DNA of 56,308 nt, taken from assembly GCA_016235675.1 (NCBI GenBank), contig JACRJN010000054.1:1-56308 (forward strand), written 5' to 3'. This document shows, piece by piece, positions 9,540 to 14,066 of this stretch. The first letter of the stretch is position 1, and each line of letters begins with the position of its first letter. The notes under the pieces were generated by a model. The model was not told the DNA's origin, did no database searches, and worked only from the letters and a program-made list of their open reading frames with translations. Made by a program: the position numbers and the translations under genes. The DNA is from Candidatus Schekmanbacteria bacterium. GTDB lineage: Bacteria > SZUA-182.

Positions 9540-9577
9540 AATAAAAGGGGCGGATTGAATTTATGTCAATCCGCCCC
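9540..9577 (-). terminator. Rho-independent terminator of the Cys-rich small gene
   Basis: A perfect 12-bp stem: GGGGCGGATTGA (9547-9558) pairs with TCAATCCGCCCC (9566-9577) across a 7-nt loop. Read on the minus strand it is followed by TTTTATTT, and it begins 8 nt after the stop codon of the gene at 9585-9692. Confidence 0.88.
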
Positions 9578-9584
9578 CCGGCCA

Positions 9585-9692
9585 TTACTTGGCTTGCTTG
9601 TCCGGTACGCAGCCGCAGCCGCAAGAGCCTTTGCTTCCGGCATTACCCTGGGGCTTTTTCGCCTCGGGCTTTACTTGTTCCTTCTTTGCCAT
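9585..9692 (-). CDS. 35-aa Cys-rich small protein, likely metal-binding, under ArsR-type control
   Basis: An open frame of 35 codons with a near-ideal ribosome binding site (AAAGGAGGTGA, then 5 nt, then ATG). The product starts MAKKEQVKPEAKKPQGNAG and ends GSCGCGCVPDKQAK. It has a Lys-rich N-terminal half and a CGCGC cluster, a plausible thiolate metal site. A promoter with TTGTAT, 17 bp and TATACT lies just upstream, and a strong terminator follows the stop. The ATATGCGCAT operator-like palindrome in its promoter is repeated upstream of the adjacent ArsR regulator, whose own C-terminus contains CICGC. I infer a small metal-buffering or metal-delivery protein regulated by that ArsR. I do not recognise a named family. 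Confidence 0.8.
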   Translation of the reverse strand: MAKKEQVKPEAKKPQGNAGSKGSCGCGCVPDKQAK

Positions 9693-9712
9693 ATGTCATT
9701 CACCTCCTTTGT

Positions 9713-9744
9713 TTAAGTATATGCGCATGTTCTTATATATACAA
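9713..9744 (-). promoter_or_regulatory. Promoter and ArsR-type operator of the Cys-rich gene
   Basis: On the minus strand, TTGTAT (9744-9739), a 17-bp spacer and TATACT (9721-9716) form a good sigma-70-like promoter. The palindrome ATGCGCAT overlaps the spacer next to the -10 box, inside TTAAGTATATGCGCAT (9713-9728). This 16-mer is repeated exactly at 10073-10088 upstream of the ArsR gene. Confidence 0.75.
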
Positions 9745-9756
9745 CGATAAAAAAAC

Positions 9757-10056
9757 TTACCCGCTTGGGTTTTTTCCTCCGTCCCGGCATCCGCAGATAC
9801 AAATCCGGTTAAGCCTTTGTCGGCATAACTCCAGCATCTCTTTGTTTAATGAGTAATAAATCCAATAACCCTGTCTTTCATCCTTCACCAGTTCCGCCCC
9901 TTTAAGCACCCGCAAATGTTGAGATACCGCGGATTGGGTTATCCCCAGCGCCCCGGCCAAGGCGTTGACGCTCATCGGCTCATTTTTAAGGTGTTCGATA
10001 ATTTCAATTCTCTTGTCCACAGAGAGCAGTTTGAATAATTCGGCGGATTCTTTCAT
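9757..10056 (-). CDS. ArsR/SmtB family metalloregulator
   Basis: A 99-aa winged-helix repressor, the standard size for the family. These proteins leave their operator when a metal, metalloid or thiol stress signal binds. The recognition helix region reads LGITQSAVSQHLRVLKGAELV (residues about 40-60), followed by the wing RQGYWIYYSL. The usual ArsR metal box (ELCVCD) in the recognition helix is absent. Instead the C-terminus holds CRQRLNRICICGC, so sensing through C-terminal cysteines is likely. An operator-like palindrome ATGCGCAT lies in its own promoter and in that of the downstream Cys-rich gene, pointing to autoregulation and a two-gene regulon. Confidence 0.9.
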   Translation of the reverse strand: MKESAELFKLLSVDKRIEIIEHLKNEPMSVNALAGALGITQSAVSQHLRVLKGAELVKDERQGYWIYYSLNKEMLELCRQRLNRICICGCRDGGKNPSG

Positions 10057-10072
10057 GGTTGAAACCTATCTA

Positions 10073-10088
10073 TTAAGTATATGCGCAT
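10073..10088 (-). promoter_or_regulatory. ArsR-type operator upstream of the ArsR gene
   Basis: TTAAGTATATGCGCAT is identical to 9713-9728. Read on the minus strand it includes a TATACT -10 box 20 nt before the arsR-like ATG. The -35 region is weak. A second dyad, GTAAC-N5-GTTAC, lies about 20 bp further upstream (about 10103-10117). Confidence 0.7.
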
Positions 10089-10147
10089 TTACTAATATAA
10101 TAGTAACCTATCGTTACCAGATTGTCAAGCCATAAAAACAAATAATT

Positions 10148-10305
10148 TCTAGTATAACGTTTCATAAAAAGGTATACAAACCTGTCATTGCGAGCTTAAG
10201 CGAAGCAATCCCGATTCTACCGGGCACTTCCGAGATTGCTTCGGCGATAAAGCTGCCTCGCAATGACAATTAAATGTACATATTTTAATGAAACGCTATA
10301 CTAGA
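10148..10305. repeat. Nested repeat: host element with TCTAGTATAACGTTTCAT ends containing a family A copy
   Basis: The outer inverted repeats TCTAGTATAACGTTTCAT (10148-10165) and ATGAAACGCTATACTAGA (10288-10305) differ at one base. Inside, 10184-10267 is a family A copy. A related host element, also with a family A copy inside, lies at 29146-29297. The rest of the gap to 10440 holds further small palindromes (GGGACTTTAGTCCC type at about 10377-10390) and a family C-like hairpin at 10404-10437, which may terminate the minus-strand gene ending at 10441. Confidence 0.85.
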
Positions 10306-10440: not shown

Positions 10441-10875
10441 TTAGGAGTTATTTTGCTTTTTCGCCGCAGGTTTGGAGACCCTTTTCATAACAGGCCGGGC
10501 GTTTTTCGTCCCTTTCCCGTCAGACGGGGCTTCGGCTGCCGCCTTAACCTTAAATTGTTTCTCAGGCTTTGCCGGTTGCGGCACTGCTGTGCCTGTTCCG
10601 CTCCAGATATTTCTCATTTCCGCCAACTCGGAGGCCACTTCGTGCTGCAAACCGTTTACGGAGGTTCTGAGATTGACCACAAAATCCGTCAGATTGGATT
10701 TCATCTCACTGGCCGATCTCTCACGCGTGGAACGCACATCAGCCTGAAAATCCGACATGTCTTGTTTCAGACCATTGACGAAACTACGGACATCCTGCAT
10801 CGCCTCGTTGCGTTTTACCCGCAAAAAACCGATTTCAGAGTGTAAACGATTCATATCGTCTGTCAATCGACCCAT
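10441..10875 (-). CDS. Helical gas-vesicle-associated protein, GvpC-like candidate (paralogue of the next gene)
   Basis: A 144-aa soluble, highly charged, mostly helical protein. Residues 1-95 are predicted coiled or amphipathic helix (MGRLTDDMNRLHSEI, then SFVNGLKQDMSDFQADVRST and DFVVNLRTSVNGLQHEV, two loosely repeated units). The helical part ends in AEMRNIWSGTG, reminiscent of the end of cyanobacterial GvpC. The last 45 residues are a Lys/Pro/Ala-rich tail. Its N-terminus is clearly related to the next protein upstream (MGRMSSDMQRLHNEI). It follows gvpA on the same strand, with GGAG 7 nt before ATG. I infer a vesicle-shell-binding accessory protein; the GvpC equivalence rests on size, position and helical repeat character only. 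Confidence 0.55.
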   Translation of the reverse strand: MGRLTDDMNRLHSEIGFLRVKRNEAMQDVRSFVNGLKQDMSDFQADVRSTRERSASEMKSNLTDFVVNLRTSVNGLQHEVASELAEMRNIWSGTGTAVPQPAKPEKQFKVKAAAEAPSDGKGTKNARPVMKRVSKPAAKKQNNS

Positions 10876-10992: not shown

Positions 10993-11262
10993 TTAATTTG
11001 CGCTGCCGAACCATGCCTGATGGGCGCCGGATAACTCGGCTATAATTTGTTTTCTCATCCCTTTGACATAAGCACGGCGTTCATCCCTGTTTTTTTTCAA
11101 CATTCTTTGCATCTTCAAACCTGTTTCGATATTGGCGGTGTGAAATTCATGCAGCATACCGGCAACATCTTTTTTCAGGTTTTTCATCCTCTGTATACGA
11201 TCATTGTGTCCGTTCATTATTTCGTTGTGCAAGCGCTGCATATCGCTGCTCATTCTTCCCAT
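10993..11262 (-). CDS. Small helical gas-vesicle-associated protein, GvpC-like candidate
   Basis: An 89-aa highly charged protein, predicted to be one long amphipathic helix or coiled coil. It begins MGRMSSDMQRLHNEIM and ends IAELSGAHQAWFGSAN. Both ends match the 144-aa downstream protein (MGRLTDDMNRLHSEI and SELAEMRNIWSGTG), so the two are paralogues. The start at 11262 was chosen because CAGGAGGAAGAAA places a GGAGG 7 nt before this ATG and because the conserved N-terminus begins here; an upstream ATG (11295) adds 11 unrelated residues. It lies about 100 bp after gvpA on the same strand and is probably in the same transcript. A vesicle surface or assembly role is inferred. Confidence 0.6.
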   Translation of the reverse strand: MGRMSSDMQRLHNEIMNGHNDRIQRMKNLKKDVAGMLHEFHTANIETGLKMQRMLKKNRDERRAYVKGMRKQIIAELSGAHQAWFGSAN

Positions 11263-11364
11263 TTTCTTCCTCCTGGCTGTATGAAAGCCATTCAAACTTA
11301 TCCCGTAGGAGGAGGAATTTTATTTCCCCCTTCCTACACAGGATAAATTAATGCTGTATCGTGC

Positions 11365-12129: not shown

Positions 12130-12480
12130 CTATTTACCGTGACAATCTTCGCACTTAGTCGGACCTTTCTTTTCTTTCTGGTGACAGCCCTTACATTTAT
12201 CATGATAGGCATCTTTTATGGCCGGAGCTTCACCCTTCTTCTCCTGATGGCATGTCTTACAGGCTTTCATCGGTTCGCCTTCTTTTGCCTTATGATGACA
12301 AACCTTGCAATCGCCGTTTCTTTTTTGATGCTCATGATGTTTGAAGCCGGCTACCGCCTTGCTTTTGCCGTTGAAATCCAACTTGATTTCAGCCGGGCCG
12401 TTATCCGTAGCTAACACTACGCTGGCAGTGGTCATCAACAAAGCTAGCCCACCCAATACCGCCACGATTTTTTTGCTCAT
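12130..12480 (-). CDS. Small periplasmic tetraheme cytochrome c (c3/c7-like)
   Basis: A 116-aa precursor: signal peptide MSKKIVAVLGGLALLMTTASVVLA, then a mature domain with four CxxCH heme sites (CKVCHH, CKTCH, CKGCH, CEDCH). Additional histidines (GFKHHEHQ, DAYHDK) can act as distal ligands for bis-His hemes. Size and spacing fit the class III c3/c7 group, soluble electron carriers in the periplasm of anaerobes. GTG AAG AGA precedes the ATG, but the ATG at 12480, 8 nt after GGAGG, is the better start. A close paralogue lies at 13192-13554 on the same strand, sharing the sequence LDFNGKSK before the heme region. Confidence 0.9.
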   Translation of the reverse strand: MSKKIVAVLGGLALLMTTASVVLATDNGPAEIKLDFNGKSKAVAGFKHHEHQKRNGDCKVCHHKAKEGEPMKACKTCHQEKKGEAPAIKDAYHDKCKGCHQKEKKGPTKCEDCHGK

Positions 12481-12513
12481 TCTCTTCACCTCCCTCCTTT
12501 GATTTATAAATAA

Positions 12514-13191: not shown

Positions 13192-13554
13192 CTACTTTCT
13201 TTCGTGGCAGTCTTTGCAATCCTTATTCGGACCCTTACCTTCCTTTTGATGACAACCCTTACATCTGGTATGGTAAGCATCCTTCATTGCCGGCTTCTCA
13301 CCTTCGGCCTTTTCGCCGTGACAGGTTTTACAAGCCTTGGGAGCATCAGTATCGCCATCTTTATGATGACATACCTTACAGTCCCCTTTCAGTCTTTCTT
13401 GATGGGCATGATGCGGGAAGTTAGCAACATGCTTGCTTTTCCCGTTAAAATCCAAAGTAGGAGATGCCGGCCCGGAACCAACTTTCCCGGCCACAGCTCC
13501 GCTTACAGTCGCCATCAATATAATACCGCTCAATATCGCTGTAATTTTCTTCAA
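13192..13554 (-). CDS. Small periplasmic tetraheme cytochrome c, paralogue of 12130-12480
   Basis: A 120-aa precursor with signal peptide (LKKITAILSGIILMATVSGAVAG) and four CxxCH sites (CKVCHH, CKTCH, CKGCH, CKDCH). The mature part aligns along its whole length with the other cytochrome (LDFNGKSK, HHAHQERLKGDCKVCHH, MKDAYHTRCKGCHQKE). The open frame extends further upstream, but TTG at 13554 sits just before the signal peptide and about 8 nt after a GGGGG site, so I take it as the start. It probably carries electrons in the periplasm alongside its paralogue. The duplication suggests dose or partner specialisation. No reductase or quinol oxidase gene is adjacent. Confidence 0.88.
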   Translation of the reverse strand: MKKITAILSGIILMATVSGAVAGKVGSGPASPTLDFNGKSKHVANFPHHAHQERLKGDCKVCHHKDGDTDAPKACKTCHGEKAEGEKPAMKDAYHTRCKGCHQKEGKGPNKDCKDCHERK

Positions 13555-14066
13555 TCCACTCACCCCCTTTCGTTGTTTAAATTTAAATCTAAGAATATAA
13601 CTGACCAAGATTTTAACAAATATTCTTAATCCCCAAAAAGGACATTCATTATCTAATTTATTCTGTTTTAATTTTTCATGATATTTAAGGTGAGATAATT
13701 TTGCGGAATAGCTCTTGGTTTTCAACCAGGCAACGGGTTTTGATTTAGAAGTAGATTAAATCAAAGCAGCACCGTTTCCAAGACGATTATTCATTTTAAG
13801 CATTTTCCACATTTAAGGAATCAAACTATTCCTTTTCACCATCATCGCATGAAAAACCTCAAAAACTACTGGAATTGCATTTTGAAACATCTCGGTAACG
13901 GCACCGTAATTATATTATCATTTACGAATCATTGTCAAGAAATATTTTAGGCTTGTCATGCTGTATTATCAACTAGTTGCAGCAAGCATATTCTTTTGCC
14001 TGTTTTATGCACACAATCAATGTATACATAATCACAATCGGCTGAACTTTTTTAATTAGGTTTACC
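13555..14066. other. Non-coding gap upstream of the cytochrome gene
   Basis: AT-rich, divergent region between the minus-strand cytochrome and the plus-strand signalling block. It contains a weak inverted repeat (GCACCGTTTCCAAG at 13769 and CTCGGTAACGGCAC at 13891) and a small hairpin AAGGAAT-N6-ATTCCTT (about 13815-13834). A 33-codon frame at 13849 has no ribosome binding site. No gene is supported. Confidence 0.5.

Follow-up and report, generated by a model that had tools for sequence, protein, structure and literature searches.

A 22-bp operator dyad couples a CxCGC-tailed ArsR-type regulator to a 35-residue Cys-rich protein in a probable metal-responsive module

The window, that is the whole 56,308-nucleotide stretch of Candidatus Schekmanbacteria DNA analysed here, carries on its minus strand, in this order, an arsR gene, a gene encoding a 35-aa protein, a terminator, a HAD phosphatase gene and a PQ-loop gene (Table 1). 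The small gene had been picked out from the sequence together with a ribosome binding site and a terminator, and these elements are indeed present, AAGGAGGTGA standing ahead of the ATG and a strong terminator lying behind the frame. On the other hand, the description of its promoter as a textbook one was overstated, since the consensus promoter scan that detects the arsR promoter lists nothing for the small gene, the likely -10 hexamer (TATACT) falls inside the operator and only TTGTAT is found upstream of it. By consensus, the small-gene promoter is weak, and this counts against our main reading of the locus.

Table 1. Features of the arsR-small gene locus (positions in the window)
Feature	Position	Strand	Basis or remark
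ArsR/SmtB-type repressor gene, 99 aa	9757..10056	-	PF01022 and NF033788 matches; fold nearest CzrA, SmtB
Codons of C-x7-CICGC (C78 to C90), proposed sensor site	9787..9825	-	Conserved in relatives; function inferred
Small gene, 35 aa, Lys-rich then CGCGC	9585..9692	-	Frame conserved among relatives
CGCGC codons, residues 24-28 of the 35-aa protein	9609..9623	-	
Operator O1, at the arsR promoter	10074..10095	.	27.9 bits; 1 mismatch
Operator O2, before the small gene	9714..9735	.	20.1 bits; 2 mismatches; same place in relatives
arsR promoter TTGACA-17-TACTAT	10100..10128	-	Consensus promoter scan
Candidate -10 TATACT of the small gene, within O2	9716..9721	-	Read from sequence
Shine-Dalgarno sequence of the small gene	9700..9709	-	Similar in relatives
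Intrinsic terminator after the small gene	9545..9579	-	14-pair stem, T-rich tail

Just upstream of the arsR promoter lies a MITE-like element (10148-10305) with 31-nt inverted ends that are 84% complementary; its 17-nt end has 37 matches in the genome with at most 2 mismatches versus 3 for the reversed pattern, several of them arranged in facing pairs about 125-140 bp apart. The surroundings also comprise a gas vesicle protein gene (PF00741; 11365-11583, minus strand), behind which stand two small coiled-coil-like genes of no clear family (10441-10875 and 10993-11295), and two similar small multihaem cytochrome c genes, one matching class III cytochrome c (12130-12489) and the other alike by eye (13192-13725).

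The regulator belongs to the ArsR/SmtB family on the basis of family profiles (PF01022, HTH_5, 48.7 bits for a cut-off of 22; NF033788, HTH_metalloreg, 89.7 bits for a cut-off of 55) and of its winged-helix fold, the top Foldseek matches being 6cdb and 1smt (E about 5e-6) and the nearest solved folds the metal sensors CzrA and SmtB. In the AlphaFold2 model (alignment A1, mean pLDDT 83.8), the last helix spans residues 72-85 and the tail is disordered from residue 92. The ELCVCD box, which is the mark of alpha3N-type metal sensors, had been noted as missing and replaced by CICGC near the C-terminus, and this is what we find: Cys residues occur only at positions 78, 86, 88 and 90, with none before residue 78, Cys78 lying inside the last helix of the model and CICGC (86-90) directly after it. 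DxHx10Hx2E, given as the alpha5 sensor motif of the last helix in the available text of PMC8790569, is absent as well, the regulator having no His after residue 47. The proposed echo between this tail and the CGCGC of the small protein is also borne out, as a CxCxC motif is common to both proteins and recurs in relatives.

A scan of named genome contigs yielded 80 loci with relatives of the regulator, 30 close (L029-L058) and 50 distant (L059-L108). The close regulators show 63-85% identity over nearly the whole protein and come from records, mostly metagenome bins, whose titles name Nitrospirae, Deltaproteobacteria, Nitrospinota, Omnitrophica, Spirochaetia, Methylomirabilota and others. The module's ArsR proteins end in CxCGC, usually within C-x7-CxCGC; the C-terminal motif occurs in all 30 close regulators (in L058 by a second pattern), and a CxCxC tail in none of the 50 distant ones. 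A CxCxC frame is found within 330 nt downstream in 29 of the 30 close loci, L054 being the exception, and by the same rule in 2 of the 50 distant loci, where it looks like chance. Together with the window and 38 stretches from further genome searches, which may overlap the contig loci at species level, the 30 close contig loci make up a final set of 69, divided by profile score into 39 close loci (155 or more) and the remaining 30, hereafter tier 2. Among the 25 tier-2 rows readable by rule, the position of Cys78 is occupied by Cys in 18 and by Tyr in 7, CxCGC being found by the second pattern in the other 5; the L178 regulator has CTCVC instead.

The small gene follows the same distribution. 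When a start codon and a stretch resembling a ribosome site are demanded, a Cys-rich small ORF is detected after arsR in 35/39 close and 24/30 tier-2 loci, versus 66 (2.1%) of 3196 pieces taken at random from these loci; at distant ArsR loci the same finder returns 6/50, five being helix-type Cys-rich proteins. No small gene was found at L054, L151 and L153, and L041 retains the Cys motif in a frame broken upstream. The three Cys residues are invariant in the 26 aligned members, and pN/pS pooled over 52 non-independent pairs among relatives amounts to 0.32, meaning that the frame is maintained as a protein. The 35-aa protein of the window has no Pfam or NCBIfam match, hence none to a known metallothionein family; searching 26 members against NCBIfam gave stray weak matches only. 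A rule-based sorting distinguishes three forms. A Lys-rich stretch precedes CGCGC in 34 ORFs of the close loci, the Cys motif leads and a Lys-rich tail ends the protein in 17 ORFs of tier 2, and CxCGC is fused to a DUF5320-like helix, with DUF5320 matches below cut-off, in 9 ORFs of tier 2 and 1 of the close group. The rule misfiles some members, as L178 and the second ORF of L173 were counted as Cys-first and look helix-type. Three Cys residues are few for a metal buffer, which also counts against our main reading, as do the loci lacking an intact small gene and the Tyr that takes the place of Cys78 in part of tier 2.

The operator is a 22-bp dyad, TAAGTATAT-N4-ATATACTTA, with one copy before arsR and one before the small gene. 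An exact 16-mer repeat had been reported in the two promoters, and TTAAGTATATGCGCAT indeed has exact copies at 9713-9728 and 10073-10088, the only ones in the 2.98-Mb assembly. The ATGCGCAT palindrome, which the original prediction took as the operator, is merely the centre of the dyad in the window: the octamer alone is not significant (3 seen in the window versus 1.5 expected, a count reached in 15 of 100 shuffles), and the real unit is the 22-bp dyad. O1 and O2 are the only dyad sites with at most 2 mismatches in the assembly, and sites with 3 mismatches stay near the level of a reversed-pattern control, on which ground a larger regulon in this genome was rejected; a third site could be missing, because the assembly is 89.65% complete.

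Outside the window, a palindromic 22-bp matrix learned from the regions upstream of 32 arsR genes, with the window left out and the arsR-small gene gap excluded from training, finds a second site in that gap, most often beginning 42-46 nt upstream of the small gene's start codon. With this matrix, O1 and O2 of the window score 27.9 and 20.1 bits. With sites called at 10 bits or more, the operator is present downstream of arsR in 37, upstream in 36 and at both places in 34 of the 39 close loci, the corresponding figures for the 30 tier-2 loci being 22, 17 and 15; the best score among 2195 random 150-nt pieces was 12.5 bits. In L051, one of the two close loci that miss the downstream site, a long gap places the site farther off. 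Similar sites precede many distant ArsR genes, and the dyad therefore belongs to a wider ArsR group. An RNA hairpin in the small-gene leader, instead of a DNA operator, was rejected: the arsR promoter has this dyad too, and by eye the two halves look non-covarying. The original prediction had been staked on the conservation of the small frame and of the operator: both are conserved, and a two-operator, two-gene regulon with a real small gene recurs in relatives from several phyla.

A terminator between the two genes was also considered and rejected. Although 25 of 29 loci have a T-run after the arsR stop, a hairpin of -6 kcal/mol or lower comes before it in 4 only, and the gap of the window holds a 4-pair stem only; being mostly devoid of a hairpin, the T-run more probably represents sequence upstream of the promoter. 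Most loci of L029-L057 present a GC-rich hairpin immediately after the small gene, usually without a T-run, whose counterpart in the window has a T-rich tail and is the terminator. This hairpin may trim or stabilise the small-gene transcript.

While the pair itself recurs, the view of a two-gene module falls short for most close relatives, where a third gene encoding a CopD-like membrane protein comes next (28 of 39 close loci, 38 of which have 700 nt of room; 4 of 30 tier-2 loci, 29 of which have it). It is the only widely recurrent neighbour of the close loci (22/31), the next clusters covering at most 6 loci. All 10 members scanned match the CopD profile PF05425 at E 0.1 or better, the first one with 34.4 bits for a gathering score of 32.1, and all 10 also match NF033808, far below its cut-off. 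The protein thus resembles CopD by profile and differs from it by its length of about 155 aa and its sub-threshold NF033808 score; no match to it was found in the window's own assembly, which is 89.65% complete. This result and the rarity of the gene in tier 2 both weigh against our main reading. At L054 and L151, where no small gene was found, arsR and an operator are followed by CopD. The module is present twice in one genome (G653), with both the small gene and CopD at L150 and with CopD only at L151.

In an ArsR tree built from 63 of the 69 rows (those under 80 residues were dropped), the phyla of the records are mixed and few forks are resolved, so that transfer of the module between lineages is likely, not proven. 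Plasmid carriage was rejected, none of the 1193 records matching ArsR doing so at 60% identity or more. Eight distant ArsR genes whose products are devoid of the CxCGC tail (L062, L066, L072, L078, L080, L082, L083 and L086) are directly followed by a gene for a small Cys/His-rich protein with a C-terminal helix, several of them with a second operator-like site. As far as sequences tell, the pairing of a regulator with a small Cys protein is thus a theme wider than the CxCGC-tailed ArsR proteins.

The operators, the gene pair, its conservation, the Cys motifs and the CopD linkage of the relatives, all of which can be read in the sequences, probably point to a soft-metal-responsive autorepressor acting on two dyads to control itself and a tiny thiolate peptide that buffers the metal. 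In this model, the ArsR-type protein would occupy both dyads, at the arsR and the small-gene promoters, until a soft, thiol-loving metal ion binds C-x7-CxCGC at the end of the last helix. The repressor would then leave the DNA, allowing synthesis of more repressor and more CGCGC protein, and the latter, whose three thiolates would bind this ion so as to buffer it or hand it on, would close a feedback loop to which most close relatives seem to have added a CopD-like membrane protein. Repression, metal binding by either protein, the identity of the metal and buffering are the parts of this scheme that we infer. As regards the ion, we tentatively place Cu(I) ahead of Zn, Cd, As(III) and others, because the CopD-like gene lies just behind in most close relatives, this linkage being the one point that favours copper. 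A review (PMC7558416) calls the role of CopD unsettled and states that, within the ArsR family, Cu(I) sensing is known only for BxmR (spelled BmxR there).

Other readings of the same features have to be weighed. The module may sense sulfur species or redox changes, the Cys cluster of the repressor being oxidised or persulfidated and the small protein serving as a thiol carrier. SqrR and BigR are sulfur-sensing relatives of ArsR, and DsbD-like and rhodanese-like genes were recognised by eye near 5 tier-2 loci each; however, CxCGC is a tight tripod, unlike the Cys pair of SqrR whose residues are far apart, and CopD-like genes are the neighbour that recurs in the close loci, which makes this reading improbable. 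Equally improbable is a partner role for the small protein, in which it would deliver metal to the repressor or strip it away with no bulk buffering. The same CxCGC-type tripod in both proteins and their shared control would fit such a role, but L054 and L151 keep repressor and operator without a detected small gene.

We regard as very improbable that the small ORF is a cis-acting leader peptide of the CutF/CruR style, whose Cys motif and C-terminal Pro-Pro would sense copper during translation and control the downstream gene, CopD in relatives. Many close relatives do have CGCGCxPP near the C-terminus and a hairpin between the small gene and CopD, reminiscent of the Cys motif, Pro-rich end and stem-loop of CutF as described in the available part of PMC9973294. 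Yet PP is not associated with CopD, since it occurs in 14 of the 21 loci that have CopD and in 6 of the 8 that lack it, and the window's protein ends in VPDKQAK, with no PP in its last 15 residues, no CopD and a terminator behind. Furthermore, the peptides of tier 2 have the Cys motif first and the Lys-rich tail last, or fuse CxCGC to a helix, and these arrangements speak against a stalling leader peptide. A precursor of a modified, methanobactin-like peptide, suggested by the look of a leader followed by Cys residues, was rejected because no biosynthetic enzyme recurs beside the small gene.

Going back to the metal-responsive autorepressor and its buffering peptide, one may speculate further on a minimal circuit in which a C-x7-CxCGC repressor and a tripod protein of 28-45 residues compete for the ion, the peptide setting the threshold of the sensor, and which has spread between phyla with three forms of peptide (tail-Cys, head-Cys and helix-fused) built on one CxCGC core. 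If so, the peptide would in effect be a single-site, ultra-small metallothionein with a polybasic tail. In any case, the locus points to a recurrent, unnamed family of small proteins tied to a definite regulator, a definite operator and, in relatives, a membrane protein, a module undescribed in the open-licence literature searched. Were it confirmed, the module would add a sensor site to those known in ArsR proteins, its peptide would count among the smallest proteins that buffer metal, and its presence would mark metal handling in many uncultured bacteria of groundwater.

Several known systems share part of these features. CutF (PMC9973294) and CruR (PMC9426467), as far as the available texts describe them, are short ORFs with a Cys motif, often located before a metal-related gene and sometimes with PP near the end; the present protein differs from them in that it has no signal peptide by eye, PP is not kept, the Cys motif is at either end and no CopD lies behind. 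The As(III) sensor AfArsR likewise clusters three thiolates of a single chain near its C-terminus, spaced as CC-x5-C (NCCHGTRDCA) in the available text of PMC11212059, compared with CxCGC here; unlike AfArsR, no ars genes were recognised on inspection of the recurrent neighbours. The cyanobacterial metallothionein repressors and their targets, SmtB-SmtA, BxmR-BmtA and AzuR-NmtA, combine an ArsR/SmtB repressor with a gene that is adjacent or co-regulated, lies behind an inverted repeat and encodes a small Cys-rich protein. According to what is available of PMC8790569, they employ a DxHx10Hx2E or alpha3N site and a 12-2-12 dyad, whereas the module described here has C-x7-CxCGC, a 9-4-9 dyad, two separate operators in tandem orientation and a peptide with 3 Cys in 35 aa that matches no family. 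The plan of an ArsR/SmtB repressor coupled to a small protein, here a probable metal binder, is thus one that is already known.
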